Below, in pieces: positions 43,406 through 55,221 of a stretch of 64,000 nucleotides of DNA (position 1 is the stretch's first letter; every line of letters starts with the position of its first letter). The notes under the pieces were generated by a model. That model did not search any database. It worked only from the letters and a program-made list of their open reading frames with translations, and was not told the DNA's origin. The position numbers and the translations under genes were made by a program. The DNA is from Aggregatibacter kilianii (GTDB lineage: Bacteria; Pseudomonadota; Gammaproteobacteria; Enterobacterales; Pasteurellaceae): contig NZ_NRCN01000001.1 of the NCBI RefSeq assembly GCF_003130255.1, forward strand, positions 986,501 to 1,050,500. Direction: 5' to 3'.

Positions 43406-43500
43406 GGAAGATCGTCGTTTCCGGTGAAGCGGCAGGACTTCAAATCCTGTTGAGGCTGCCAGCAGTCTCGGGTAGGTTCAACTCCTACGATCTTCCGCCA
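43406..43500 (+). tRNA. selC: tRNA-Sec (anticodon TCA)
   Basis: The 95-base length and sequence closely follow E. coli selC: 5' GGAAGATCGTCGTTTCCGG, anticodon loop CTTCAAA with TCA, a long variable arm and the 3' end GATCTTCCGCCA with encoded CCA. The acceptor stem GGAAGATC pairs with GATCTTCC, giving the extended 8-bp acceptor of tRNA-Sec. Its 3' end is the attachment site of the element that follows. Confidence 0.97.
43477..43500 (+). other. attL: 3' end of selC used as integration site
   Basis: The 24 bases from TTCAACTCCTACGATC to CCGCCA recur, lacking one T, at 53786-53808. The intact copy stays in the tRNA gene next to the integrase, the usual arrangement for P4-type integration into tRNA genes. 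Confidence 0.9.
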
Positions 43501-43612
43501 ATTCATGTCATCCCGCATAAATCCACATAAACAACCTACCAAACAAACCCTGTATCTAAAAGGCTTTATTGTAATTTATCGTAAATCTACATAAACTACT
43601 AGCAACGATTTT

Positions 43613-43785
43613 TAGTACTATTTTTAGTACTATATTTTGCCGATAGTACTATTTTTTTCTCATTTACTCCCTGAGAACTCTCTAAACCTCAAAAAATTAT
43701 AGTACTAAACCGCAATTTAGTTCTTATAAATCAATCTACTAGAAATCGGCAATTAACAGGCACTCTTCTGTTTTTGATGGTACTA
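43613..43785. repeat. TAGTACTA palindromes at the left end (integrase arm-type or operator sites)
   Basis: Perfect copies begin at 43613, 43625, 43644 and 43700, and a one-mismatch copy (TGGTACTA) begins at 43778. The first pair is 12 bases apart, the same as the pair at the right end. They fill the 290-base gap between selC and the integrase. Confidence 0.75.
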
Positions 43786-43791
43786 AAATTT

Positions 43792-45045
43792 ATGGCGCGC
43801 ATAATTAAACCCTTAACCGACAAAGAAATTCGCACTGCTAAAGCGGATAAATTCCCACTCAGAGACGGCAACGGATTATCTCTAGAACTTACCACCACCG
43901 GCGCGAAAATATGGCGTTTTAACTACTTTAAGCCCTTTACCCAAAAAAGAACCAATATCAGCCTAGGCAAACTATCTGATATGACATTGACACAAGCACG
44001 GGCAAAGCGTGAAGAATATCGGCAACTCTTAGCAAAGAATATCGATCCACTTACCTATGAAATGCAACTCAAACAAGAAAACACGGACAAACAGAACCGC
44101 ACTTTTGAGCGCATGGCAGAAGAATGGTTTAAGGATAGGCAGCTTAAAGCTAATTTCACTGAGCGCACCGCAAAAGACACATGGGCTTTATTTGAACGAC
44201 ATATTCTCCCCGCTATCGGCAAATATCCAATCGACCAACTGACCGCACTTATCGGCATTAATGCTTTCAAGCCATTAGAGCGCGCAGGAAAATTAGAGAC
44301 CGTTAGAAAAATATTAAACAACGTAAATCATGTAATGCGTTACGCCTTGCACCGTGGATTAATTGCCACCAACAACTTAGCCGAAATTCAACGGGAATTT
44401 GATAAACCGCGTGTAAAAGGTATGAACACCATAGAACCGGACGAGCTGGCGGAATTTTTAGCGAAATTCTATCAAGCAAGAGATGAAGGAAGATTTTCTC
44501 TATTGTCGTTCTGTGCCGTGATGTTGGCAGTGTTAACCGGAAGCAGACCAAGCGAAATAGCACGGGCGCAGTGGGAAGATATAGACACCTCAGCGCAAAC
44601 ATGGAGCTATCGAGTACAGAAAGGCAATAAGAATTTACCGGAGGGGCGATTGCATATCGTCACCCTCTCCCGTCAAGCCGTGGCTATCTTTGAGAAAATG
44701 CGGGAAATTCAGACCGCACTTAGTCTAACTGACAGCCCTTTTGTCTTTGCCAGCACCACCGCCAAGAGTGGACATATCACTATTGAAGCCTTGCGCATGG
44801 CAATTATTCGAAGCGTTGGCGAGGGGAGATTAACAACCCACGGTATTAGACATTTATTCAGCACCTCACTTAATGACAAAAACTATAATGCAGATTGGAT
44901 TGAGAAAGCCCTATCACACAAGGATAAGAACGCCATTAGAGGAACATATAACAAGGCTTACTATATCAATCAGCGGGCGGAAATGTTGCAGGCGTGGGCG
45001 GATTATGTGGAATCATTAGCCCCCTCTCCAATAGTCGGGAAATAA
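43792..45045 (+). CDS. int: Tyrosine recombinase / P4-type integrase
   Basis: A 417-residue integrase with the N-terminal DUF4102-like arm-binding domain (PLTDKEIRTAKADKFPLRDG), a core-binding domain and the catalytic domain. Catalytic residues are visible: Arg in TGSRPSEIARAQW, His-x-x-Arg in THGIRHLFSTSL, a second His in LSHKDKNAIRGTYNKAYY, and the nucleophile Tyr in the NKAYY segment. ATG 43792 (MARIIKPLTDKEI) fits relatives; ATG 43777 is an alternative, and neither has a clear ribosome site. It reads away from selC. Confidence 0.93.
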   Translation: MARIIKPLTDKEIRTAKADKFPLRDGNGLSLELTTTGAKIWRFNYFKPFTQKRTNISLGKLSDMTLTQARAKREEYRQLLAKNIDPLTYEMQLKQENTDKQNRTFERMAEEWFKDRQLKANFTERTAKDTWALFERHILPAIGKYPIDQLTALIGINAFKPLERAGKLETVRKILNNVNHVMRYALHRGLIATNNLAEIQREFDKPRVKGMNTIEPDELAEFLAKFYQARDEGRFSLLSFCAVMLAVLTGSRPSEIARAQWEDIDTSAQTWSYRVQKGNKNLPEGRLHIVTLSRQAVAIFEKMREIQTALSLTDSPFVFASTTAKSGHITIEALRMAIIRSVGEGRLTTHGIRHLFSTSLNDKNYNADWIEKALSHKDKNAIRGTYNKAYYINQRAEMLQAWADYVESLAPSPIVGK

Positions 45046-45140
45046 CAATCAACCCACATTCTTTTTACACTCGAACGGTAGTCTTTATAGGCTGCCGTTT
45101 TTTATTAATTAATTCTGTTGTGGGAGTTTTTTTTCAAATC

Positions 45141-45236
45141 TTAACCACTTTGCCACTTCAACCACTTATTTTCTTATAAGTCATTAAAAAATAAAGAATA
45201 GTTAGAAGTGGTTACACAAGTGGTTAAAGTGGTTAC
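45141..45236. repeat. AAGTGGTTA iterons, left cluster (ori- or crr-like)
   Basis: Inverted copies TTAACCACTT (45141), GCCACTT (45152) and AACCACTT (45160) face direct copies AAGTGGTTAC (45206), AAGTGGTTAA (45218) and AAGTGGTTAC (45227) across an AT-rich 38-base centre. The sequence recurs at 53240-53377. The arrangement resembles the replication-protein binding repeats of P4-type satellites. Confidence 0.75.
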
Positions 45237-45270
45237 TGAAGGTAAAACAGGGAAAAAGAGGGTATTTTTC

Positions 45271-45366
45271 ATGATTTATTGCATTTTATTTTTTGCGTTT
45301 TGCGGATTAAATGTGTATTTGGCGAGAGAAATGAGGTACGGTTATGGTAGCTATACCTTTGGTTAA
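45271..45366 (+). CDS. Possible small membrane peptide, 31 residues
   Basis: The frame starts MIYCILFFAFCGLNVYLARE, with a hydrophobic N-terminal half. GAGGG sits 8 bases ahead of its ATG. It overlaps the start of the next frame (45344). Small hydrophobic peptides of this kind occur next to the immunity region in satellites, but I cannot name it. Confidence 0.35.
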   Translation: MIYCILFFAFCGLNVYLAREMRYGYGSYTFG

Positions 45367-45607
45367 AGTTGTGATGACTACAACCGGAAAGACGGAAATC
45401 CGTCTATTCCAATGTAAAAAGGTTTGATGTAGTGCATGGAGCTTTTTATTGAATTTTCGGAGCAGTACGCACGCGCGAAGCATTTATACCAATGGTGGAG
45501 GGGGCGTAACAATCTCTACACCAATCAACCGCGAAAACCGCTCATTCAATGCAATTTTCATAACCGCGAAATTAAGATTTAGCATGGTGGTAGATGATGA
45601 CAGATAA
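45344..45607 (+). pseudogene. 88-codon frame interrupted by an in-frame TGA (Ash/Icd-region small protein)
   Basis: A good ribosome site (TGAGG, 7-base spacing) precedes ATG 45344. The frame reads MVAIPLVKVVMTTTGKTEIR, then CKKV, TGA at 45425-45427, and stays open for 60 further codons (HARSIYTNGGGG region) to TAA at 45605. Such proteins are known from Pasteurellaceae prophage islands. A second frame (45436-45582, 48 codons) overlaps it without a ribosome site. TGA may be a nonsense change; selenocysteine decoding is not supported by a clear hairpin. Confidence 0.4.
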
Positions 45608-45717
45608 AGCAGACTGATTCGCCACTAAGTAAAGGTACTCCTGAGGAGAATAGCACTCCCACGGGGTTTAGGGCGCGCGGAGATTGCCTATTTTTTGAAT
45701 TTCTAGTCATCATCATC
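45592..45717. other. Possible structured RNA region
   Basis: GATGATGAC (45593-45601) can pair with GTCATCATC (45706-45714) around smaller GC-rich hairpins such as CTCCTGAGGAG and CCCACGGGG. The position between integrase and cargo is where P4-like elements keep an immunity RNA; that link is inference. Confidence 0.3.
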
Positions 45718-45731
45718 TTCCGGCTAAATTG

Positions 45732-45777
45732 CTTTTTTTATAGCGTTCGAAAACCTTTTTTATAGTGTTCCGAAACC
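45732..45777 (+). repeat. Tandem 23-base repeat CTTTTTTATAGTG-type
   Basis: Two adjacent units, 45732-45755 and 45755-45777, share CTTTTTT(T)ATAG(C/T)GTTC and end in GAAA(A)CC. The 14 bases CTTTTTTATAGTGT recur exactly at 53435-53448 near the right end. They may be promoter elements (TATAGT as -10). Confidence 0.6.
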
Positions 45778-45889
45778 TGTTTATTTATACAGATTTTTCT
45801 TGCGAACAGTATTGAAACGCTACTTACCTTATGAAAGAATAAACCAACGTAAAACGCCGTAAAGATACGGCAAGATTAATACTAAATAT

Positions 45890-45973
45890 AGTGCGACTAG
45901 GTGCGGATTAATTACCCACGCCGAAAGAATGAAACCCTATTTTCATTTTGTCGCACTTCCTTTCATGAATAGG
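45890..45973 (+). other. Structured leader of the 363-residue gene
   Basis: AGTGCGAC (45890-45897) pairs with GTCGCACT (45950-45957), with an inner hairpin AATGAAA/TTTCATT. Alternatively CCCTATT (about 45934) pairs with AATAGGG (about 45967). The two foldings exclude one another and end 20 bases before the start codon. Confidence 0.4.
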
Positions 45974-45993
45974 GCAACGCATAGGGGCGTTTT

Positions 45994-47085
45994 ATGTTAG
46001 AAAGATTAAACGTTGATAAGTTTAAACATAATATTCCAGATAGATCGTTTTATTCGGTATTTGAAATATCCAGGGCATTAAATATTTCTCTTGATGGAAT
46101 TTTAGACTATTTAGCGTCTGGGGATCTTAAGGCTCAAATAAATGTAGTTTACATAAATGATGGTATAGTCTCTATCGGCGGAAGATGTACTACACAACAA
46201 ATTTTCTTAGAAAAAGATAAGTCATTTATATCATTTAATGGCGGTCTAGGATTAAATATTAATTTATCCAAGAAAAATTTATTTTTTGAAGTCAAAGGGG
46301 AACTTCCAAAAATATCTTATATAAAATCAACATATGCGATTTCTTTCGGGAAAATAAATAAAAAAAACTATTCACTTGAAAATAGAGATGTTTCATTTAA
46401 TGCTTATTTTAACATACACAAACATTTCTTTTCTGAGAATCAGTTTTCATTATCACAGGATCTAAAAGAAGCCAATCTATTCGGAAAGTGTAAGCTTGCT
46501 ATGAAAGAAGATGGCTTTTTTTCAAATTTAACACTCACCTTTAAAAAACCTTATACAATTGAACTAGGACAAATAAAAATAAGTCATGCTGATTTAATGT
46601 ATTTTTTGACTAAAGAACAAAAACCTATTGATAGTTATAAAGTGCGAATTTCATACCTATTAAGCCTTATTGATAGTGAACTGGAAGCTATGCGCAATAT
46701 TGCTTATAACAAATTCTTTAAACGCAAAGATATAAATAAGCCTTATCGACGAGCAAAAGCAGAAATTAGTAAATTACAAAATATCATTGATGAATCAAAA
46801 GATAGCTCAATCTTAGAAACAAATTTACTTAGTTATGACACCAGCACTTCTCAAGGTAAGGAAATTTCTAGGGATGTTTTAGAATATCAAGCTGATTTAC
46901 CTGAAGGAATAAACTCAGACAAACTAGCAGACTTTATAAGTCTGATTATTGATCCTGAATTACTGGACGAAAACGGAGAAATACCGAGTTATAGCCGCTT
47001 ACATTCAAAACTAGATACAAAACACAAAGGGAAACGATTAATTCCTTCCAAAAACACTATTAAAAAATATCTAAACCAATTATAG
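45994..47085 (+). CDS. Unknown cargo protein, 363 residues, AT-rich
   Basis: I do not recognise the family. The N-terminus (FEISRALNISLDGILDYLAS) looks like a helix-turn-helix. The middle (residues about 60-200) is beta-rich by eye. A charged helical part follows (NKFFKRKDINKPYRRAKAEI), and a C-terminal segment (EIPSYSRLHSKLDTKHKGKR) could be a second DNA-binding helix pair. It is markedly more AT-rich than flanking genes, a sign of separate acquisition. It occupies the cargo slot between integrase and AlpA, where satellites often carry anti-phage genes. The start follows GGGGCG weakly; a strong terminator follows. Confidence 0.7.
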   Translation: MLERLNVDKFKHNIPDRSFYSVFEISRALNISLDGILDYLASGDLKAQINVVYINDGIVSIGGRCTTQQIFLEKDKSFISFNGGLGLNINLSKKNLFFEVKGELPKISYIKSTYAISFGKINKKNYSLENRDVSFNAYFNIHKHFFSENQFSLSQDLKEANLFGKCKLAMKEDGFFSNLTLTFKKPYTIELGQIKISHADLMYFLTKEQKPIDSYKVRISYLLSLIDSELEAMRNIAYNKFFKRKDINKPYRRAKAEISKLQNIIDESKDSSILETNLLSYDTSTSQGKEISRDVLEYQADLPEGINSDKLADFISLIIDPELLDENGEIPSYSRLHSKLDTKHKGKRLIPSKNTIKKYLNQL

Positions 47086-47107
47086 CCAGTTCAAAACTGG
47101 CTTTTTA
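47084..47107 (+). terminator. Terminator of the 363-residue gene
   Basis: AGCCAGTT (47084-47091), loop CAA and AACTGGCT (47095-47102) run into TTTTATT. Confidence 0.9.
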
Positions 47108-47130
47108 TTGTTCAATAATCCATAAAATTT

Positions 47131-47167
47131 AGTTCATTTGTTCATTGAACGAGTTCATTTGTTCAGT
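47131..47167. promoter_or_regulatory. GTTCA operator cluster upstream of alpA
   Basis: AGTTCATTTGTTCA occurs at 47131-47144 and 47152-47165, exactly 21 bases (two helical turns) apart. GTTCATTGAAC (47140-47150) lies between them. It is probably the binding site of a repressor or of AlpA itself. Confidence 0.55.
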
Positions 47168-47204
47168 TTCATCACAAAACCTTTCCATATTGCTTTAATA
47201 ACCC

Positions 47205-47218
47205 CGTAAACGTTTACG
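47205..47218. promoter_or_regulatory. 14-base palindrome before alpA
   Basis: CGTAAACGTTTACG is a perfect palindrome 36 bases ahead of the alpA start. This is in the region expected to hold the promoter start and a regulator site. Confidence 0.5.
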
Positions 47219-47254
47219 ACACATTCCACAGATTGAAACTAACGAGGGGTAAAC

Positions 47255-47461
47255 ATGACACTTCAAACACATACAGATCCAAATAAACGTTGTTCACTAG
47301 CAGAAGTAAAGAATCTTGCCGGCGGCGTATCACATACATTCATTTATCAGCAAGTGAAAAAGGGTTTATTAGCACCACCTGAAAAACTAGGACGTATGAG
47401 CCGTTGGAAATATGCCGATGTTATGGCGTGGCTGAATGGCGAAACGGCACAGGCGCACTAA
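47255..47461 (+). CDS. alpA: AlpA-family DNA-binding regulator
   Basis: A 68-residue winged-helix protein of the AlpA/excisionase type. The recognition part is SLAEVKNLAGGVSHTFIYQQVKKGLL, given by the core GVSHTFIYQQVKKG, then GRMSRWKYADVMAWLNG at the end. In P4-like satellites AlpA proteins activate integrase or act as excision factors. GAGGGG stands 6 bases before ATG 47255. It heads a block of closely packed genes running to the helicase. Confidence 0.88.
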   Translation: MTLQTHTDPNKRCSLAEVKNLAGGVSHTFIYQQVKKGLLAPPEKLGRMSRWKYADVMAWLNGETAQAH

Positions 47462-47476
47462 TAGGGAGGGGAACGA

Positions 47477-47761
47477 ATGAATCAAATGCCTTTTCTTTCC
47501 ACCACCAGCACAAGCGAACAACGCCGATTCATCATTCAACGGTTAAGAGAGCGCCCACACAGCACAAACGAACTGCGACAAATGGGCGTTTATTACCCGC
47601 CGGCACGCATTAAAGAATTACGCAATCAAGGTTATTTGATTGATACGTTCTTCCGTGATGAAACCGACAACACCAGCTTAATTCACCGTGTAGGTGTTTA
47701 TGTTTTACATGAAAACGCAGTAAGCCAAAAACACAATCAGACAAGCACAGAGGAAGTTTAA
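47477..47761 (+). CDS. Helix-turn-helix protein, 94 residues
   Basis: A winged-helix-like sequence: QRRFIIQRLRERPHSTNELR, then YPPARIKELRNQGYLIDTFF, where the strand-turn follows a recognition-like helix. Similar short proteins are common in Pasteurellaceae prophages, and their role is unknown. It lies 15 bases after alpA, with GGGAGGGG before ATG 47477. Its stop overlaps the next start. Confidence 0.65.
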   Translation: MNQMPFLSTTSTSEQRRFIIQRLRERPHSTNELRQMGVYYPPARIKELRNQGYLIDTFFRDETDNTSLIHRVGVYVLHENAVSQKHNQTSTEEV

Positions 47762-48084
47762 TGATGAATAGCACAAACACACCAACTCAACTACAAAAGC
47801 ACGGCACAGCAACACTATGGAGCATTGAAGCTCAAATTGCCGAGATTTACGAAATCGCAGACGCAGGATTGAACGGTGCGATTTATCAAGTGAATGAACA
47901 CGGCGAAAGAATCAGCAAGAGCAAAGAGGAAGTGTTAGATCTAATTTTGGATAGGGTCACATTGGCTTTGATGGATATTGATGATCTAAAACGACAAATT
48001 GAAGCCCTAGCCATTCACCACGAAGCCAAAGCTGAGCGGGATTATTTAACGTTGCCGGTGGTGGACTTAGGAGGGGCGCAATGA
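47761..48084 (+). CDS. Hypothetical protein, 107 residues
   Basis: Mostly helical and acidic (LWSIEAQIAEIYEIADAGLN). The first ATG (47761) shares a base with the previous stop (TAATG); a second ATG follows at once. GAGGAAG gives the ribosome site. No family recognised. Part of the single-strand gene block of the element; overlaps the next gene by 4 bases. Confidence 0.6.
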   Translation: MMNSTNTPTQLQKHGTATLWSIEAQIAEIYEIADAGLNGAIYQVNEHGERISKSKEEVLDLILDRVTLALMDIDDLKRQIEALAIHHEAKAERDYLTLPVVDLGGAQ

Positions 48085-48311
48085 TTGAACAAGAAACAAA
48101 CCAAGCCACCAACGAAGAACAAGAAAAGCCTACGCTGACAATGGCGCGGGCATATATTGCCAAACTGAGAGAAATTAGCGGCGCAATGGTGGCAGGAAGA
48201 AAACTTAAAGACAACCTGACACCAGCCGATATATGGAATCTTGTTCATGTGCAGTTAGGTAACACAGAACGACTGATTGAAATCGCACAAGAGCAACTAA
48301 AGAGGATTTAG
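48081..48311 (+). CDS. Hypothetical protein, 76 residues
   Basis: A helical 76-residue protein (MARAYIAKLREISGAMVAGR) starting with an ATGA overlap and a strong GGAGGGG site. No recognised domain. The tight overlap with both neighbours shows it is a real coding sequence of the element. Confidence 0.6.
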   Translation: MIEQETNQATNEEQEKPTLTMARAYIAKLREISGAMVAGRKLKDNLTPADIWNLVHVQLGNTERLIEIAQEQLKRI

Positions 48312-48314
48312 ACA

Positions 48315-48386
48315 ATGAGCTACGGGCAGGAAATACGAAGCCAATTTGCCAAAGCCTACTCACGTTTAAAGGAGACTACACAATGA
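48315..48386 (+). CDS. Possible 23-residue leader peptide
   Basis: ATG 48315 has GAGG upstream. It encodes MSYGQEIRSQFAKAYSRLKE plus three residues, and its TGA overlaps the ATG of the antirepressor gene (ATGA). It may only couple translation of the next gene. Confidence 0.35.
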   Translation: MSYGQEIRSQFAKAYSRLKETTQ

Positions 48387-49204
48387 CAACCAAAACAAAC
48401 GGAAATTTAACCGCACTTTTACCGGTGGAAAAATCCTTTTACCAAGGCATAACCACATACCACGTTAACGCGCGGGCATTGCATGGATTTTTGGAAAATA
48501 AACGCGACTTTTCTAACTGGATCTCTCAAAGAATTAGCCAATATGGCTTTCTCGAGGGAGTGGATTACACCATTGTTTGCCCAACAAATTTGTTGAGCAA
48601 AGAGAGCAATAAAAAATCTTTAACTCACAAAATTGTGAAGCAAAAAGACAACTTATGTTACTCAAATTTGAGTAAAACCAAATCTACTTCTCGCCGTGGT
48701 GGTCACAACAAAATTGATTATTTACTTTCGTTAAACATGGCGAAGGAATTGGCAATGGTAGAAAACAATGTTCAAGGCAAAGCCGCCCGCCGGTATTTTA
48801 TTTCTTGTGAAGAACAACTAAGCCAAATTGCCCCGGAAATTCACCAACAAGAATTAGCCCGCTGGCAACAAAGCCGAGAGTTAGCCAAGTCACCTTTCAA
48901 GTCGATGAATAATGCCCTTGAACGTATGAGAACACGACAAGGCAAAGGCACGGCTAAGAATCACTATATCAATGAATCAAACATGCTAACCGGCATTGTA
49001 TTAGGGCAAAGCGTGTAGCTATACAAAGCCGATAACCACATTCAAGGCGAAGTACGGGAACACTTAAACGCCGTACAGCTTGAACGATTGGAATATTTAG
49101 AGAGGGCAAATGAAATGTTGCTTGATAGCGACATTCAAGACTTTGAGGAGCGCCGTTTTAAGTTAGTGGCGATGTTGGCTAATCGGTTTAAACAAGCGGC
49201 ATAA
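48383..49204 (+). pseudogene. AntA/AntB-type antirepressor split by an amber codon
   Basis: The frame reads 211 residues to TAG (49016-49018) and then continues in the same frame for 61 more codons to TAA (49202-49204), giving 273 codons if the amber is read. The N-terminal domain (ARALHGFLENKRDFSNWISQ, KIDYLLSLNMAKELAMVENN, GKAARRYFISCEEQL) is the AntA/AntB antirepressor type. The part after the TAG (LERLEYLERANEMLLDSDIQ) looks like the normal helical tail. So it is probably a recent nonsense mutation. A 211-residue product may still work, as the DNA-proximal domain is intact. Confidence 0.75.
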
Positions 49205-49209
49205 ACAAA

Positions 49210-49240
49210 ACGCCCGAGATAACACTACGGGCGTACTATT
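49210..49240 (+). terminator. Hairpin after the antirepressor gene
   Basis: ACGCCCG (49210-49216) pairs with CGGGCGT (49228-49234), followed by ACTATTTA. The T run is poor, so termination would be partial. Confidence 0.5.
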
Positions 49241-49257
49241 TAGGAAGAATAAATCAA

Positions 49258-49845
49258 ATGTACTTAAATTATATTCAAATCAAAGAAATTCACAATAACC
49301 ACTTTACAAAGTGCGGTCAAATTTGCGAGTATATTCCTGCCTTAGCAAAATCTAAGGTCAGCCGTGGAAAGCTGAATATTAAGTTACAGGCGAACGATAG
49401 CACGCCTTTTAATCGTGCTTTTTTTGTTCGTAACATTCGCACACCTCAAGAATTTGCGGATTTTGTTTTATTTAATCTAAAAATTCATTCAATGGTAGAG
49501 CGTAATAGGCAGTCTTTGACTGGCTGCCTTCCTGTAACGGCAGTTTTCCACCCTGTTATGCTCTACCGCCCGACCGTGGAAAGTCTAGCGGTAGATTCTG
49601 AAAATCAGTTACAGGAATCTACGCAAATGTATCAATTCATTTTTGCGGCTATTCGCCGTACCGATCTAACCAATCACATTCAAAAAATCCGTATCACTGC
49701 CAATACAGAACAAGCCGCACGCGCCCAATTCGCCCGTGATTTTGTTCTTGTACTCACCGGCAAAATCAATCTTCAAAACACCGTGAAAAACAACCGCACT
49801 TTTACGGCAATCTCTCGTGATTCTATGGAGGTGGCTCATGCTTAG
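49258..49845 (+). CDS. Icd-like host cell division inhibitor family protein
   Basis: A 195-residue protein. The C-terminal part YQFIFAAIRRTDLTNHIQKI followed by TANTEQAARAQFARDFVLVL is the pattern of the Icd-like proteins found in P4-type and prophage elements. In phage P1 icd blocks host division; function here is inferred from family only. The N-terminal 115 residues contain ARALAKSK-type basic segments and no recognised domain. It carries an internal uptake signal at 49309. AGGAAG lies before ATG 49258. Confidence 0.6.
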   Translation: MYLNYIQIKEIHNNHFTKCGQICEYIPALAKSKVSRGKLNIKLQANDSTPFNRAFFVRNIRTPQEFADFVLFNLKIHSMVERNRQSLTGCLPVTAVFHPVMLYRPTVESLAVDSENQLQESTQMYQFIFAAIRRTDLTNHIQKIRITANTEQAARAQFARDFVLVLTGKINLQNTVKNNRTFTAISRDSMEVAHA

Positions 49846-50167
49846 TTATGACGCAATTAAAATTGTTCTTCAAGACGTAGTGAATAGTAACGGAGTAAGC
49901 AAGGAAACTTTAGAGAAGATCCGAACTGAAAGTGAATGCCTTTGTGGAACTATCGAATATGGATTGATGGAGTTAGGCGACATGATAAGCCGCTTAGGCT
50001 TCTTTGCTGAGAGTGAGCAAAACTTTGATCATCAAGCGATGAGCAATGACAATGTAAAACATATTGGAGCATTAATTCAGGCTAACGCATATTTTCTAAA
50101 CACATTGCGTAATGTATCAGCAGAAGCCACCTATCACCTTAACAGTGGAAATAAGGGGAAGAAATGA
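49838..50167 (+). CDS. Hypothetical protein, 109 residues
   Basis: A helical protein (IVLQDVVNSNGVSKETLEKI, YGLMELGDMISRLGFFAESE). GGAGG lies 7 bases ahead of ATG 49838, and the gene overlaps the end of the Icd-like gene. No family recognised. Its stop overlaps the next start. Confidence 0.6.
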   Translation: MLSYDAIKIVLQDVVNSNGVSKETLEKIRTESECLCGTIEYGLMELGDMISRLGFFAESEQNFDHQAMSNDNVKHIGALIQANAYFLNTLRNVSAEATYHLNSGNKGKK

Positions 50168-50367
50168 TGAGTAACACTAAATTCCCTTATAGCCTTGTTT
50201 TTACCTATGACAACGGCGATCAATTCACAGCTGGTCAATATTGTTCACTTAGAGACGTACTACAAGCCAAAATCAGAGCAAAAGCTGAGATTGGCGAAAC
50301 AGATATTAGCGGCAGACGTTTAGAAACTATCACTGTTTTAGCGGAGGGCGAAAATGAAACCAACTAA
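50164..50367 (+). CDS. Hypothetical protein, 67 residues
   Basis: A small, probably beta-alpha protein (FPYSLVFTYDNGDQFTAGQY). Starts in an ATGATG that overlaps the previous stop, with GGGGAAG ahead. No family recognised. Overlaps the next gene by 14 bases. Confidence 0.55.
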   Translation: MMSNTKFPYSLVFTYDNGDQFTAGQYCSLRDVLQAKIRAKAEIGETDISGRRLETITVLAEGENETN

Positions 50368-51034
50368 CCCAATGGCACAGCTTCAACAATGGAAAGCGAA
50401 CAATACTAAGAATTTAGTAAGCGATGGTGGGGTATCAGTCAACGGCGTACACCCTAACACGCTCAAAATTGAGCCGGTTAAAAGTGAGATAAAAAACTGC
50501 GAAAGAAATTGCGAAACTGCGAAACGAAACAAAACACAGTTAACCCTTGATAATACTGGCTTTATAAAAAGAAACTGCGAAACAGGTTGCGAATTTGCGA
50601 AAGCGCAGAATGCAAATTTACATTCTGTTCAAAAAACGCAACAGGAAGCGCAAGGCGGAGAGAAACGCAAATACCAAGGGAAACTGTTTATCAATCCATT
50701 GGTGGCGGAATATAGCCAGCTTACGCGCCAATTTAAGCTAATTCATGATAGTAACCGCAAATGCCTTGAAGTTTATCCGGATGACTTCCATCACAAACTA
50801 AAAATGCGTGGGGAATGTGTTGATTTAGTGGAGCGATTAAAAGGTGGTGGAAAGTTATTCAATGACTTAGCCAAAGGCATAAATTTAAACGCGGAACAGA
50901 CCGCACTTTTGAAATCGTTTAATCAACTGAACGGGTATCTTATTTTCAAATTCGCTGAGGTGGCGAAACAGATTGATGAATTGAATCTTGAGCGTGTGGA
51001 AAGTATCAAGTTACAAGGGGGAAGTGATGAGTAA
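50354..51034 (+). CDS. Hypothetical protein, 226 residues
   Basis: The N-terminal 110 residues are low in hydrophobics and rich in Asn, Lys and Cys (NCERNCETAKRNK, NCETGCEFAKAQN, a near-repeat of N-C-E-x-x-C-E). The C-terminal 110 residues are helical (FINPLVAEYSQLTRQFKLIH, LLKSFNQLNGYLIFKFAEVA). The repeated cysteine pairs could bind a metal. No family recognised. GGAGGGCG lies before ATG 50354. Confidence 0.6.
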   Translation: MKPTNPMAQLQQWKANNTKNLVSDGGVSVNGVHPNTLKIEPVKSEIKNCERNCETAKRNKTQLTLDNTGFIKRNCETGCEFAKAQNANLHSVQKTQQEAQGGEKRKYQGKLFINPLVAEYSQLTRQFKLIHDSNRKCLEVYPDDFHHKLKMRGECVDLVERLKGGGKLFNDLAKGINLNAEQTALLKSFNQLNGYLIFKFAEVAKQIDELNLERVESIKLQGGSDE

Positions 51035-51389
51035 AACTGTTTTTGCGTTAACTGCCCTATTGTCATTTTATGACGATTCAAGCCTTTCTATCGTGGTTGC
51101 CGTGCGAGAGACGAAAGAGGAAGTAAAAGCCTTGCACCATGATTATTTGCAGCAGGGGAAGATGACAGGGATAAAAGCAATTAACCTTGAGTATTACACC
51201 TTGGCAATCGTGACTGGCAACGCTAATCCGCCAATGATTCTTGCCACCGGTAAGAAACAACGTGAAATCATGGAGGACGCTCGAGAGAATTTTAAAATGC
51301 TGCTCCCTTATGCACAAATCATTGTGGCGAAATTTGCTGATATGGCATTGATTCAACAGCGTGGCACGCTTGAGTTTATAGCGGGGTAA
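51027..51389 (+). CDS. Hypothetical protein, 120 residues
   Basis: An alpha/beta protein (VFALTALLSFYDDSSLSIVV, ANPPMILATGKKQREIMEDA). ATG 51027 follows GGGGGAAG and overlaps the previous stop. It ends 3 bases before the helicase gene, so may be a helicase partner. No family recognised. Confidence 0.6.
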   Translation: MSKTVFALTALLSFYDDSSLSIVVAVRETKEEVKALHHDYLQQGKMTGIKAINLEYYTLAIVTGNANPPMILATGKKQREIMEDARENFKMLLPYAQIIVAKFADMALIQQRGTLEFIAG

Positions 51390-51392
51390 CTT

Positions 51393-53144
51393 ATGGCAAG
51401 ATTAAAATATGCACCCAACTTAAAACTTCAAGATCAAACGGGCAATTCTGAAATTGTTATTTGCGTGGGCGTTCAAGCATGGGACTTTGCCAAATACATT
51501 AAAGAGCAAGAAAGCCCGCATATTAGCCCTGTGGTGGTGGATAACGAGATATTGGAAGAAATCGACAAGTACCGAATCGCACCGAAGAAAGCACGGTTTA
51601 TTCGTCTGATTCGAGCTAATAACGCTAAGCCATTGGATGAGCTAGTTTTAGGGCAGTTATGCGCGAACATTGCCGGCACAACCAAAGCAATTATGGTGGA
51701 ACTGTACGATGAAGCCGGACAATTAATTGATAACCTGAACAGTTATGTTGGCAAAATTCGCAAAGGAGAAAGCGTACTGCCACCAACGACAGAAAGCGAA
51801 GATTATGCCACCACCTTTAACACGAAGCCTGATAACAAGCGAGTTAGTGATTTTTTGGCATGGTATCGCAAGCCTTTACGCCTCGATGAAGTTAGCGACA
51901 CCCTTTACACCTACACGGGCAAGAAGTGGGAGGCATTGACGGAAAAAGCCGTAGGACGCATTGTGAGGGACTTTTTCAAGGAAAAGGGCATATCTTACAG
52001 CGCACGCCGTATTGATGGCATGGTTAAGCTCATGATTGATTATGAACTGGAATTAATGGGCAAGCGTAACCCTGATTTATTAGCGTTTTCCAACGGTGTA
52101 TTGAATAAGAAAACAGGAGAATTTTTACCGCATGATGAGCAGTATTTTTTAACCTCGTTCATTGATATTCAATACGCCGAACAGCCACAAAATACACCGC
52201 ACTTTGATAGATGGTTGCAGTGGGTTAGCGACAACGACCAAAACAAAGCACGCCGCATTTTGGCAGGGTTATATATGATTCTTACGAATCGCTATGAATG
52301 GCAGTTATTCCTTGAAGTGACGGGCGTTGGTGGTAGTGGTAAATCCATTTTTAACGAACTGGCGAAGATGTTAGCCGGCGAGGGAAACACGGCAGCAATT
52401 AGCCTGAAAGAATTAGAAAGCGTTACAGCAAGAGCAAAACTCATTGATAAAACGTTTTTCTATTCCTCAGATCAAGAATCATATATTGGCGATGGCGCAG
52501 AACTGAGAGCAATTACCGGCGGGGATAGTATCAGCGTTAAACTGCTTTATAAAAACCCGTTCGATGTGGTGGTGCGTGCGGTTTACATGATGACAAATAA
52601 CACCTCAATTATTTTTAAAGAGAATAACGGCGGAATTATGCGCCGTAGAGTGATTTTTCACTTCAATAGAAAAGTACCCGATGATATGCGGGATAATCAC
52701 TTGAAAGAGAAACTGAACGCCGAAGCGTCTGGGATTGTACGCCGTTTACTTGATACTTTTTCAGATCCAAGTGACGCAGAGAAACTATTGCACGAACAAC
52801 GGGAAAGCATGGAAGCATTAAAAGTACGGCGACAAACCGATCACATTCTAGACTTTTGCCGACACTTCACCAGTAAGCAGACAATTAACGGGTTATATGT
52901 GGGCAGTGCAAGAACGGCAGCAAACGCAGAGAAACGCTATTTATACTCAGCTTATCTTCACTACTGCGAATGCTTAAACATTACTAAACCACTAGGGCGA
53001 AGTCGTTTTATTCAAGCCTTTAAGCAGGCAATGAAAGAAAGCCAATTTGCTTATGAATTTGAGCAACGTTCAAAAGATGGTTATTTGATTACTAACGTTT
53101 ATTTTATTGATTCAGACAGCTCATTGAATGAATGGCGCGGATAG
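51393..53144 (+). CDS. Satellite primase/SF3 helicase (P4 alpha-like C-terminal part)
   Basis: A 583-residue replication protein. The middle has a D5/primase-C-type domain (DLLAFSNGVLNKKTGEFLPH). The SF3 ATPase follows with Walker A GVGGSGKSIFNELAKML near residue 314, the strand FFYSSDQESYIGDG with acidic residues and sensor region YMMTNNTSIIFKENNGG, then RRRVIFHF with the arginine finger. The C-terminal 90 residues are a winged helix-like part. It is shorter than P4 alpha (777 residues) and lacks a recognisable TOPRIM primase domain. It should bind the AAGTGGTTA iterons at both element ends. Confidence 0.85.
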   Translation: MARLKYAPNLKLQDQTGNSEIVICVGVQAWDFAKYIKEQESPHISPVVVDNEILEEIDKYRIAPKKARFIRLIRANNAKPLDELVLGQLCANIAGTTKAIMVELYDEAGQLIDNLNSYVGKIRKGESVLPPTTESEDYATTFNTKPDNKRVSDFLAWYRKPLRLDEVSDTLYTYTGKKWEALTEKAVGRIVRDFFKEKGISYSARRIDGMVKLMIDYELELMGKRNPDLLAFSNGVLNKKTGEFLPHDEQYFLTSFIDIQYAEQPQNTPHFDRWLQWVSDNDQNKARRILAGLYMILTNRYEWQLFLEVTGVGGSGKSIFNELAKMLAGEGNTAAISLKELESVTARAKLIDKTFFYSSDQESYIGDGAELRAITGGDSISVKLLYKNPFDVVVRAVYMMTNNTSIIFKENNGGIMRRRVIFHFNRKVPDDMRDNHLKEKLNAEASGIVRRLLDTFSDPSDAEKLLHEQRESMEALKVRRQTDHILDFCRHFTSKQTINGLYVGSARTAANAEKRYLYSAYLHYCECLNITKPLGRSRFIQAFKQAMKESQFAYEFEQRSKDGYLITNVYFIDSDSSLNEWRG

Positions 53145-53239
53145 TGAGCGTAATAGAGATGAAAGGCTTGATACTATTAAGTATTGAGCCTTTTTTATTG
53201 CAGATAATTCACCAAAAAACACACTAAAAACGCCCTAAA

Positions 53240-53377
53240 AAGTGGTTACTGAGGGTTAAAAGTGGCTAAATAAGTGGTTACCAAGTGGCAACTGAAACAA
53301 GTAACCACTTCTATTTTTAGGTTTAAATTCAAATGGTTAAGTCTAAAATTGCCCTAAGAAGTGGTTGAAGTGGTTAC
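53240..53377. repeat. AAGTGGTTA iterons, right cluster (ori- or crr-like)
   Basis: Direct copies start at 53240, 53260 (GGCTA variant), 53272, 53283 (GGCAA variant), 53359 and 53368; one inverted copy is at 53301-53310; a degenerate copy is at 53331. The last pair is 9 bases apart, the same as a pair in the left cluster. The stretch starts about 100 bases after the helicase gene. Confidence 0.75.
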
Positions 53378-53434
53378 TTTTCACAAAAAAACTTTTTCTT
53401 TTTATTTTTTTAATTTTTTTATTTGTCGAAATCT

Positions 53435-53448
53435 CTTTTTTATAGTGT
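53435..53448 (+). promoter_or_regulatory. CTTTTTTATAGTGT box before the last gene of the element
   Basis: Exact copy of 14 bases of the tandem repeat at 45755-45768. It holds TATAGT, a possible -10, 31 bases before ATG 53477. Confidence 0.45.
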
Positions 53449-53476
53449 AAAAAACTATCATGCTGAGGTGGTGGAA

Positions 53477-53662
53477 ATGCGAAAGGTCAAAGCGAATAGC
53501 AATACAGATAACTATCAGAACAGCCGCTTTAATGCCGTGAAACATGGTGGATATAGTACGGCTTTTCTCTCTTTGAGTAAGGAAGAACGGGAGCAAATTT
53601 TCGACCGGTTAAACCGTGGGAAAAAGCGCTTTCATGGGGTTGATTTTAAAAAGCCCTCATGA
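53477..53662 (+). CDS. Small basic protein at the right end of the element, 61 residues
   Basis: A 61-residue basic protein (NSRFNAVKHGGYSTAFLSLS, REQIFDRLNRGKKRFHG). GAGG/GTGG lies before ATG 53477. The NAVKHG segment occurs in small proteins of phage and plasmid elements, but I cannot assign a function. Last gene before attR. Confidence 0.55.
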   Translation: MRKVKANSNTDNYQNSRFNAVKHGGYSTAFLSLSKEEREQIFDRLNRGKKRFHGVDFKKPS

Positions 53663-53711
53663 GCTTAAAAATTGTGTGAAAAATAGACAAAATAAACGGT
53701 TAAAAAAATTT

Positions 53712-53731
53712 TAGTACTATAAATAGTACCA
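53712..53731. repeat. TAGTACTA palindromes at the right end
   Basis: TAGTACTA at 53712-53719 and TAGTACCA at 53724-53731, 12 bases apart as in the first pair at the left end. About 55 bases from attR. Confidence 0.7.
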
Positions 53732-53785
53732 TAATTAGATATGGTAAAAATTAATTCATTTAAAAACAATTAATTAAGTATTAAA

Positions 53786-53808
53786 TTCAACTCCTACGAT
53801 CTCCGCCA
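53786..53808 (+). other. attR: truncated copy of the selC 3' end
   Basis: TTCAACTCCTACGATC followed by TCCGCCA; identical to 43477-43500 except for one missing T. It marks the right junction of the element. Confidence 0.88.
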
Positions 53809-53885
53809 AGTTTTCATTCTCAAAAAGCACTTCAAAAAAACGACCGCACTTTAACTAAAATCAATATCTTTAAGTCAGGTTTACC

Positions 53886-53945
53886 TTGTGGCAGTTAACC
53901 CAAGATGAGTTAAAGCGCTTAAGTCATGAATTTATTGTTGATTGA
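53886..53945 (+). pseudogene. Possible remnant of a pseudouridine synthase C-terminus
   Basis: One frame reads [19 protein letters not shown] and stop. The nine residues LTQDELKRL are identical to the tail of RluE in this window (near 29560). No start or catalytic part is present. It may be a fragment left beside selC; chance similarity is possible over so few residues. Confidence 0.3.
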
Positions 53946-53957
53946 TAGCTCATGTTT

Positions 53958-54005
53958 AAAAAAGTGCGGTCAGAAAAACACTTAAATTTCTGACCGCACT
54001 TTTTT
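53958..54005 (-). terminator. Terminator of nlpD built from inverted uptake signals
   Basis: A 19-bp stem, 53958-53976 with 53987-54005, contains AAAGTGCGGTC and its complement. A T run follows on both strands. It lies 10 bases past the nlpD stop. Confidence 0.9.
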
Positions 54006-54015
54006 CTTTTGTGGA

Positions 54016-55221
54016 TTAACGACGCGGTAAATAGCGGGTTGGGTCGACGGATTTACCTTTGTAGCGAATTTCAAAGTGAAGTTTTACGCCGTTGGTGCCG
54101 GAGCTACCCATTTTGGCGATTTGCTGACCTGCGTTCACTTCTTGTTGGTCTTTCACGAGGATGCTGTCATTGTGGGCGTAAGCACTGAGGAAGTCATCGT
54201 TATGTTTGATGATGATCAGATTACCGTAGCCGCGTAACGCATTACCCGCGTAAACTACACGACCGCCCGCAGCCGCGTTAACCGCTTGTCCGCGTGAGCC
54301 GCTGATGTCTATACCTTTGTTGCCGCCATCAGAATTTGAGAAACCTTGGATAACATTGCCACTGGTTGGCCAACGCCAAGCGACGTTGGAGACGGCCGGT
54401 GCAGTTTCTGTTGTCATTGCTTGGCTTGTAGGTTGTTGCACTTGCGTAGTTAGCGGTGCATTGGACGGAGGCGTTCCGCCTACACTGGCTTTAATTGGAC
54501 CGGTAATAGTGCCATCTGAGCCATATTGTGTGCCGTTAGCGCCCGGAGTATAGGTAATCGTTGGTTCGGTTGCACCCGGTTGAGTTGTTGCTTGCATTGG
54601 TTGTGCAACCGATGTGGTTTTCGCCACTGCTTGTGGGGCGGCAGAGCGTCCATTAGACACTTTTAAGGTTTGTCCCACACTTAGGCTATATGGCTCTTTC
54701 ATGTTATTTAACGCAGCCAATTCTTTTATATCTAAGCCGGAAATATAGGCAATGAGAAACATGGTGTCGCCTTTGCGAACAGTATAAGTTTCCCCTTTAT
54801 AGAAGCCTTTGTTAATTTGGCTGTAATCCGGCGCGTTAGTGGTTGGGTTACGCGGGATGGTAAAATCCTGTGGCACCTGTTGAGAATGTGTCTGCGCCAC
54901 AGGCTGTGGTTGCGTCTGTTGAACAGGCTGTTGTGCCGGTTGTTGATAGGTCGGTTGGAAATTCGGTTGCGGTGTAGATTGTGCGTTGGCACCTTGTACA
55001 TTACCACTTTGTTGCATTGGACCATTCATAGAATTCGGTACATTGCTTTGAGTAATCTGTGGTTCCCAAGTAGCACTGCCACCATCAGAGCTACCGTCAA
55101 CCGGTTGCATCATGCCTGGAGAGAGTGTGCCGTCAGCATTTTCCACCGGTGCCGGTGAGTTTGAGCTACAAGCTGCAAGTACAGCGATAGTTATTGGTAA
55201 AAGTAAAAAAGATTTTTTCAT
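54016..55221 (-). CDS. nlpD: Murein hydrolase activator NlpD (LppB-like lipoprotein)
   Basis: A 401-residue outer-membrane lipoprotein. Lipobox LAAC with cysteine at residue 18, then a Gln/Pro-rich linker. A LysM domain is at about residues 147-190 (YTVRKGDTMFLIAYISGLDI) and a C-terminal M23-like domain (KGIDISGSRGQAVNAAAGGR, VKLHFEIRYKGKSVDPTRYL). The degenerate M23 domain activates amidases during cell separation rather than cutting murein. Last gene of the ftsB-nlpD operon; rpoS, which follows nlpD in enterobacteria, is absent and the selC element's right end lies there. Confidence 0.93.
   Translation of the reverse strand: MKKSFLLLPITIAVLAACSSNSPAPVENADGTLSPGMMQPVDGSSDGGSATWEPQITQSNVPNSMNGPMQQSGNVQGANAQSTPQPNFQPTYQQPAQQPVQQTQPQPVAQTHSQQVPQDFTIPRNPTTNAPDYSQINKGFYKGETYTVRKGDTMFLIAYISGLDIKELAALNNMKEPYSLSVGQTLKVSNGRSAAPQAVAKTTSVAQPMQATTQPGATEPTITYTPGANGTQYGSDGTITGPIKASVGGTPPSNAPLTTQVQQPTSQAMTTETAPAVSNVAWRWPTSGNVIQGFSNSDGGNKGIDISGSRGQAVNAAAGGRVVYAGNALRGYGNLIIIKHNDDFLSAYAHNDSILVKDQQEVNAGQQIAKMGSSGTNGVKLHFEIRYKGKSVDPTRYLPRR

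Follow-up and report, generated by a model that had tools for sequence, protein, structure and literature searches.

The 64,000-nt window analysed here (Aggregatibacter kilianii, assembly GCF_003130255.1, contig NZ_NRCN01000001.1, positions 986,501 to 1,050,500) carries, beside the selenocysteine tRNA gene selC, an element of 10.3 kb that on its gene content and boundaries is an integrated satellite of the Gram-negative phage-inducible chromosomal island (PICI) type and a new member of this known kind. What is new is a cassette between its integrase gene (int) and alpA, consisting of a leader RNA, a gene for a 363-aa protein with two modules and a set of operator-like repeats before alpA. We propose, with confidence somewhat above even, that the 363-aa protein is the resident switch of the satellite, which would bind the repeats at 47131-47165 and hold alpA off, with an N-terminal module that would sense the helper phage and a leader that would tune translation; the protein is probably a Stl-like repressor. 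A wider proposal is that the gene located between int and alpA encodes the master switch that has been missing from Gram-negative satellites of Pasteurellaceae, a protein assembled from shuffled N-terminal (helper-sensing) and C-terminal (DNA-binding) modules, in which each C-terminal module would bring its own operator into the alpA promoter and translation would be under a pseudoknotted leader; this proposal is in our judgement evenly balanced. If it is true, helper range and satellite cross-immunity would evolve by domain exchange. Among the satellite matches listed in our literature survey, no regulator between int and alpA is described in the titles or abstract openings. The cassette offers a concrete protein, operator and leader RNA, and the natural pairings in several module classes can serve as controls.

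The proposed regulator (45994..47085, + strand) has its C-terminal module at approximately residues 256-363. None of Pfam, PHROG, PADLOC and NCBIfam gave a convincing family for the protein, which has a weak HTH_17 match (0.0077) over residues 19-48. The position of such genes is constant: in a set of 80 distinct RNAs (31 long and 49 canonical members of the leader class), alpA lies downstream in 71, usually 100-200 nt past the variable open reading frame (ORF; range 27-564), and for most of the remaining nine a short stretch was examined. A further 26 RNAs that lack the CCGAA motif are all followed by a frame starting at the RNA end, and 23 of them by alpA. The encoded proteins are mosaics, with C-terminal modules common to proteins with unrelated N-termini; comparison of 60 proteins gave 61 pairs related by the C-terminus only (up to 97% identical), 90 by the N-terminal part only, 87 in both parts and 26 others. 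The 363-aa protein as a query found matches in 11 of 139 other genomes, ten in its C-terminal part and one in its N-terminal part. A transfer-messenger RNA gene lies near eight of the 11 loci examined for relatives of the protein (L066, L067, L068, L070, L072, L073, L075 and L076), which suggests that related satellites commonly sit at ssrA.

The gene is followed by an intrinsic terminator-like hairpin (47084..47102, + strand), from which it follows that alpA probably has its own promoter, and then by the operator-like repeats AGTTCATTTGTTCATTGAAC-GA-GTTCATTTGTTCA (47131..47165); a palindrome seen in the sequence letters, CGTAAACGTTTACG (47205..47218), is a possible AlpA site before alpA itself (47255..47461, + strand). 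The 13-mer repeat occurs exactly only at 47131-47165 in the 64 kb. When elements are grouped by C-terminal module, class-specific repeats appear in the gap before alpA, the repeat of the window's class being present in all five elements of that class in the first set. Over 67 elements, pairs with related C-termini (198 pairs) share a mean exact run of 14.7 nt in their gaps, compared with 8.9 nt for shuffled gaps, the observed mean being reached in 0 of 2000 shuffles. Within the gap, the sequence adjoining the frame goes with the module and the alpA-proximal sequence with the AlpA allele, a pattern that linkage could produce.

The pairing of module and repeat was also examined in a held-out set of 23 elements, ten of which could be classed and 13 not. 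The predicted repeat was present in nine of the ten classed elements: as an exact copy in four of four members of the window's class, while none of the 19 others had it within two mismatches, and, within two mismatches, in three of three members of the class that we term GLE and two of two of that termed GYTG. Scans of viral contigs with the operator alone placed it beside the predicted module in two of two cases for the window's class, nine of nine for the KTL class and two of four for GYTG; among contigs outside the first set five of seven fit, one of which had already been found by protein similarity. For a further class, STVKKWI, the short operator pattern (TAACAGTTA/CAACAGT) was non-discriminating in the held-out set and is not used as evidence.

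Several results count against the proposed pairing and the repressor role. No helix-turn-helix or other family was found for the module, and a search for solved relatives of two module classes gave none that was convincing. Pairs related by the N-terminus only (164 pairs) have a mean exact gap run of 9.7 nt, slightly above shuffles (68 of 2000). The operator classes were first recognised by eye; the single held-out KTL element lacked the predicted repeat (0 of 1), three of the four held-out members of the window's class come from one genus, one held-out GLE member is almost a copy of a first-set element, and neither of the two new contigs of the GYTG scan fitted. No sigma-70-like promoter was found to overlap the operator and, for the leader RNA discussed below, the number of further pair types, one of five RNA measures, was not above shuffles (240 of 500). 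Module and operator are also neighbours, and linked inheritance explains part of their correlation. That linkage alone is responsible is argued against by the retention of the operator while neighbouring DNA diverges: within the window's class (10 pairs from five elements) operator identity is 0.88-0.97, whereas it is 0.53-0.67 for the DNA of the module, 0.31-0.69 for the 40 nt before the operator and 0.45-0.56 for the 60 nt after it (0.48 when shuffled).

The same comparison bears on the idea that the gene is accessory cargo, for example an anti-phage gene, occupying a swap site, with the repeats and the 3' end of the gene moving as one exchange unit and no functional pairing. Such an arrangement would fit the presence of a different gene at that place in A. 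segnis, where the ORF was read as Fic by its motif, the annotation of the corresponding gene of the Pasteurella satellite phage Pmp8 as an exonuclease, and the co-inheritance of neighbouring sequences. It accords less well with an operator that is 88-97% conserved in the window's class beside coding DNA at 53-67% and a far-side spacer that is near random, or with the occurrence of that operator together with different alpA alleles. PADLOC gave no match for the 363-aa protein, and a defence-gene reading of it was rejected. We consider the cargo explanation unlikely. Slightly more probable, though still a minority reading, is that the protein activates alpA, or regulates only itself, instead of repressing alpA. 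The operator lies between the terminator-like hairpin and alpA, a position that would also suit an activator site, and no promoter overlapping it was resolved; set against this, several half-sites in tandem and inverted arrangement are more usual in repressor operators. In an Escherichia coli PICI, moreover, AlpA is already described as activating its own promoter (PMC6092414).

The frame of the proposed switch is preceded by a leader RNA of 107 nt (45887..45993, + strand; stems P1-P3), which we regard as a long relative of the int-alpA RNA (RF02996). Its predicted pseudoknot joins 45935-45940 with 45969-45974, and its last hairpin (45976-45991) has the ribosome-binding site in the loop, the start codon coming next. 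Both A. segnis and a different genus of the family (G026) keep the 107-nt leader, each in front of a different frame. The int-alpA model of Rfam gave no match to the window's leader at E values up to 10; Rfam did find RF02996 in a second satellite of the same genome (G000:C2, see below) and in the Pasteurella satellite phage Pmp7, and alignment revealed a shared structure, core sequence and gene context. The window's RNA resembles the int-alpA RNA in CUAGG, CCGAAA, the complementarity of loop and tail and its place before the ORF preceding alpA, and differs from it in being a long form with an enlarged second stem, which the Rfam model missed.

In the seven long sequences compensatory changes occur in 13 of 26 predicted pairs. 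When the pseudoknot, which is invariant in these sequences, is added, 98.2% of cells pair, compared with 42-50% in slid controls, and covariation is 0.42, compared with 0.20 in shuffles (0 of 500). Both wider alignments of long and canonical members, one by MAFFT and one fitted to the model, are out of register in the pseudoknot, so that it was tested there row by row, in 53 of 79 rows, the other 26 being dropped as having no CCGAA anchor. The complementarity of loop and tail averages 6.9 nt over these 53 rows and 5.4 nt once the tails have been swapped among rows (0 of 500), and is below 5 nt in three rows. A covariance model built from the seven long members only (R1) matches 70 of 140 Pasteurellaceae genomes, its hits extending to canonical members, so that the leader class is present in about half of those sampled, and the Rfam model matches 21 of the 140. 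In a class sample of 369 genomes R1 matches two, one of which is the window's own genome, the other 368 thus giving one weak match; the exact long RNA pattern was found in no viral contigs. The Rfam type of RF02996 is a small RNA gene, whereas here it looks like a cis leader; the constant position of the ORF disfavours the former and suggests that the int-alpA RNA may be a cis-acting leader and not a free small RNA. The motif is only listed among predicted RNAs, and not tested, in the available text of PMC12370729.

Taken together with what is known of AlpA, these features lead us to favour the following mechanism. The C-terminal module would bind the GTTCA repeats (47131-47165), which lie a short way upstream of alpA; the bound protein would keep alpA, activator of excision and replication, off; the N-terminal module would respond to a signal from the helper phage, in the presence of which AlpA, Int and the primase would be switched on. 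Since the ribosome-binding site is within the last hairpin of the leader RNA, this RNA would tune how the switch is translated. Further downstream, a C4 RNA would provide a second, P4/P1-type layer of immunity over the Ash operon. PMC6092414 presents AlpA as activating PICI induction, and AlpA is needed for the cycle of the PICIs studied (PMC6092414, PMC11773190). The proposed switch resembles Stl of the Staphylococcus aureus pathogenicity islands, as it is presented in PMC6695447, in its role and as a modular repressor whose specificities for DNA and for partner are separate, but differs in that DNA specificity would here sit at the C-terminus, and no sequence relation between the two is claimed.

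The left attachment site is the 3' end of selC (43406..43500, + strand; ARAGORN; Rfam RF01852, 82 bits), where the 24-nt left repeat TTCAACTCCTACGATCTTCCGCCA occupies 43477-43500 (+ strand, from the sequence letters); the 23-nt right repeat (53786..53808, + strand, by sequence comparison) has one T fewer than selC and, of all sequence within 43601-54200, matches the selC 3' end best (edit distance 1, end at 53808). The imperfect 23-base copy 10.3 kb from selC, which an earlier sequence-only reading of this DNA by a model had put forward, is thus borne out. The same T is absent from the right repeats of three selC elements, i.e. those of the window, A. segnis and Necropsobacter, and therefore probably belongs to the element's own attP; decay as its cause is disfavoured, since the T is lacking in all three right repeats found. 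For a fourth selC element, in another genus (G093), no right repeat was found within the 14 kb examined. From the shared 1-nt deletion, an identical 8-bp core TCCGCCAA (left 43494..43501, right 53802-53809, + strand) is proposed as the strand-exchange site, and exchange within it would leave selC whole on excision. Four TAGTACTA repeats (43613..43707), with a fifth at 53712, are likely integrase arm sites, all five copies in the window lying inside the element. The G+C content is 39% in the element and 44% and 46% in the flanks, and no near relative of the element was found by DNA similarity to phages.

A clean empty selC site in relatives had been set by the sequence-only reading as the test on which its proposal of integration would stand or fall, and the relatives provide one. 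At eight congeneric selC loci, the 44 nt to the right of the window's right repeat were compared with the sequence after selC. Three loci (G003, G007 and G008) are clear empty sites, with local scores of 26-31 compared with 15-16 for the best of 1000 shuffles; two (G004 and G006) are weak ones, with a score of 16 (0 and 1 of 1000 shuffles) and a match that leans on the common word ACCGCACTTT. We conclude from these alignments that an empty selC site exists. In G001 no match to the window's right flank was found after selC. The selC of A. segnis HK_296 (G002) carries an element with integrase and primase 98% and 97% identical to those of the window, and that of A. segnis ATCC 33393 (G005) an integrase remnant. 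Outside the genus, a selC element of Necropsobacter massiliensis FF6 has an integrase 84% and an AlpA 96% identical to those of the window together with a different primase, and the selC-adjacent element of G093 (C11:140000-158000) has an integrase of 57% identity, an int-alpA-type RNA, Ash and a C-terminal module of the window's kind (43%).

Other features of these loci may be recorded. Directly behind the A. segnis HK_296 element lie pieces of a second integrase (L030 2069-2735), i.e. a tandem insertion at selC. The genes nlpD and surE are upstream of selC in both A. segnis strains and downstream in the window, G003, G004 and G006, an arrangement that indicates rearrangement at selC in G002 and G005. 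The window's right flank (53809-53958) is similar to the stretch that comes immediately after selC in G008 and that, on visual inspection, was taken for the beginning of a Fic-family gene; a Fic gene lies inside the element of A. segnis HK_296 (Pfam).

Between the repeats, 14 ORFs, all on the + strand, were taken as genes. The P4-type integrase beside selC, the AlpA regulator and the SF3 primase-helicase that the sequence-only reading had named were all recovered by profile searches, and its statement that no structural or packaging genes are visible holds, with sub-threshold similarity in one small ORF. The tyrosine integrase (417 aa, 43792..45045) matches Arm-DNA-bind_3, Phage_int_M and Phage_integrase of Pfam and phrog_1. 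It is followed by a cluster of iterons, AAGTGGTTA (45142..45235, + strand), for which an origin-like function may be supposed; the segment 45537-45881, between int and the leader RNA, is found at the same place in G002 (82%), and pieces of it also near integrase remnants (G002, G005) and elsewhere in the G026 element. AlpA (68 aa) is an AlpA-like excisionase or transcriptional regulator (HTH_17 2.9e-4, below the curated cut-off; phrog_66 5.1e-6). Then come three small genes (47477..48311; HTH_39 94 aa, 107 aa and 76 aa), with relatives in A. segnis and Necropsobacter, and a gene for an AntA-type antirepressor (48383..49018; PF08346 2e-24; phrog_5817 6e-38), the frame of which stops at 49018 while DNA similarity to relatives runs on (window 48383-49200); the gene may be shortened.

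The Ash / Icd-like gene (195 aa, 49258..49845; PF10554 1e-11; NF033153 3e-20) hosts the immunity RNA: an isrK-like / C4-target region (a1, b1; 49326..49425, + strand) matches isrK at 43 bits and c4-a1b1 at 31.3 bits, both below their cut-offs of 50 and 46.7, and the C4 antisense RNA (49488..49573, + strand) matches RF01695 at 64.9 bits (gathering cut-off 45; fold z -5.2). Four small genes (109, 67, 226 and 120 aa; 49838..51389) lead to the SF3 / D5 primase-helicase (583 aa, 51393..53144; D5_N 1.2e-17; phrog_864 6.9e-81), which has relatives in Pasteurella satellite phages Pmp7 and Pmp8 (36%) and in P4 (33%). Beyond it lies an origin-like region of AAGTGGTTA iterons and then an A+T-rich tract (53240..53430, + strand). 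The origin expected of a Gram-negative PICI has two iteron sets on either side of an A+T-rich tract, 3' of the replication gene; here one iteron set and the A+T-rich tract are 3' of the primase and a second set is at the opposite end of the element. The window has ten AAGTGGTTA copies, of which nine fall inside the element, eight of these in the clusters 45142-45235 and 53240-53376. The last ORF (79 aa, 53423..53662), adjoining these iterons, has sub-threshold small-terminase similarity (phrog_370 0.023, NF040601 0.013) and a sub-threshold minor-head match, and is possibly a packaging-interference protein. No structural or packaging family was found above this weak level in the 14 ORFs with Pfam and PHROGs.

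That the element is an immobile remnant, no longer able to be mobilised, is in our view rather unlikely. The lack of packaging genes above the weak level would agree with it, as would the integrase remnants that G005 has at selC and G002 next to its element. Four phage-gene families were used to look for a resident helper prophage (HK97 capsid, sheath, baseplate J and tape measure; the search did not extend to P2- or Mu-type capsids), and none was found in the window's own genome, where the HK97 capsid occurs only within the G000:C2 satellite, and sheath, baseplate J and tape measure not at all. Against decay, however, stand the open frames of Int, AlpA, AntA, Ash and primase and the full-length selC relatives in A. 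segnis and Necropsobacter, and a homolog of terS is found in some, not all, of the PICIs described in PMC6092414.

The same genome carries the second, capsid-forming satellite already mentioned, beside tRNA-Leu(GAG) (G000:C2:238000-257000). Its Ash/C4 region is 91% identical to that of the window over approximately 600 nt, no other match between the two being as long and as strong (the best has 79% over 305 nt), and their putative C4 target loops do not differ; the two satellites therefore probably share immunity specificity. The likeness suggests either shared immunity or a recent module exchange between satellites, and more generally that satellites sharing one cell can have a common immunity module. 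A third element with integrase and primase-helicase lies beside tRNA-Met (G000:C1:688000-706000). In another genome, G030, there are many near-identical satellite copies (C1, C2, C6, C7, C18, C29 and C30), with five equal-scoring primase copies and six equal-scoring int-alpA RNAs, two of each on C6.

The sequence-only reading had called the element "P4/PICI-like", and only the second half of this label is upheld. Gene order, attachment repeats and the empty site speak for a PICI: int, alpA and primase occur in this order with one direction of transcription, integration is site-specific, and the complete order is int, alpA, AntA/Ash with the C4 RNA, primase and iterons. A P4-like satellite in the strict sense is very improbable. 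The element does share with P4 (NC_001609) the integrase type, a C4/CI-type RNA, an AlpA/Vis relative and an alpha-like helicase (33% identical to P4 alpha, with 83% of the query aligned), but no relatives of sid, psu, delta (ogr-like) or epsilon were found among the Pfam matches of the 14 ORFs, its genes are all on one strand whereas those of P4 are on both, and its primase-helicase has 583 aa compared with 777 aa in P4. With no P4-specific genes found, P4 membership was rejected; so was membership of the capsid-forming PICIs (cf-PICIs), there being no capsid, portal or terminase genes above the weak level. The satellite's occurrence in a Pasteurellaceae, considered noteworthy by the sequence-only reading, is less surprising, since PICIs from this family, including Aggregatibacter, are already described in PMC6092414 and PMC10111431.

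Compared with the Gram-negative PICIs EcCICFT073 and PmCI172, as presented in PMC6092414, the element is alike in its int-alpA-primase order, single direction and specific site, in late genes being optional and in the occurrence of Pasteurellaceae hosts, but it has no clear packaging gene, and the leader RNA and the cassette of module and operator are not mentioned in the accessible part of that paper. The zone model of Gram-negative PICIs in PMC10111431, the reference PICIs of which include ones from Aggregatibacter and Necropsobacter, distinguishes integration, Bro-network genes with C4/isrK RNAs, replication and a late zone. The window's element has the first three in the same order, AntA and Ash with the C4 RNA representing the Bro-network; its late zone, by contrast, is empty, and its modular protein, encoded before alpA, has no Bro-network Pfam match. 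Pmp7 (OR544138) and the co-resident G000:C2 satellite share with it the int-alpA RNA, a protein of the same kind, AlpA, Ash and the primase, the C4 RNA being present in G000:C2 and not over the cut-off in Pmp7; unlike the window's element, both have the canonical short RNA and terminase genes of their own, with portal and capsid genes in addition in G000:C2.

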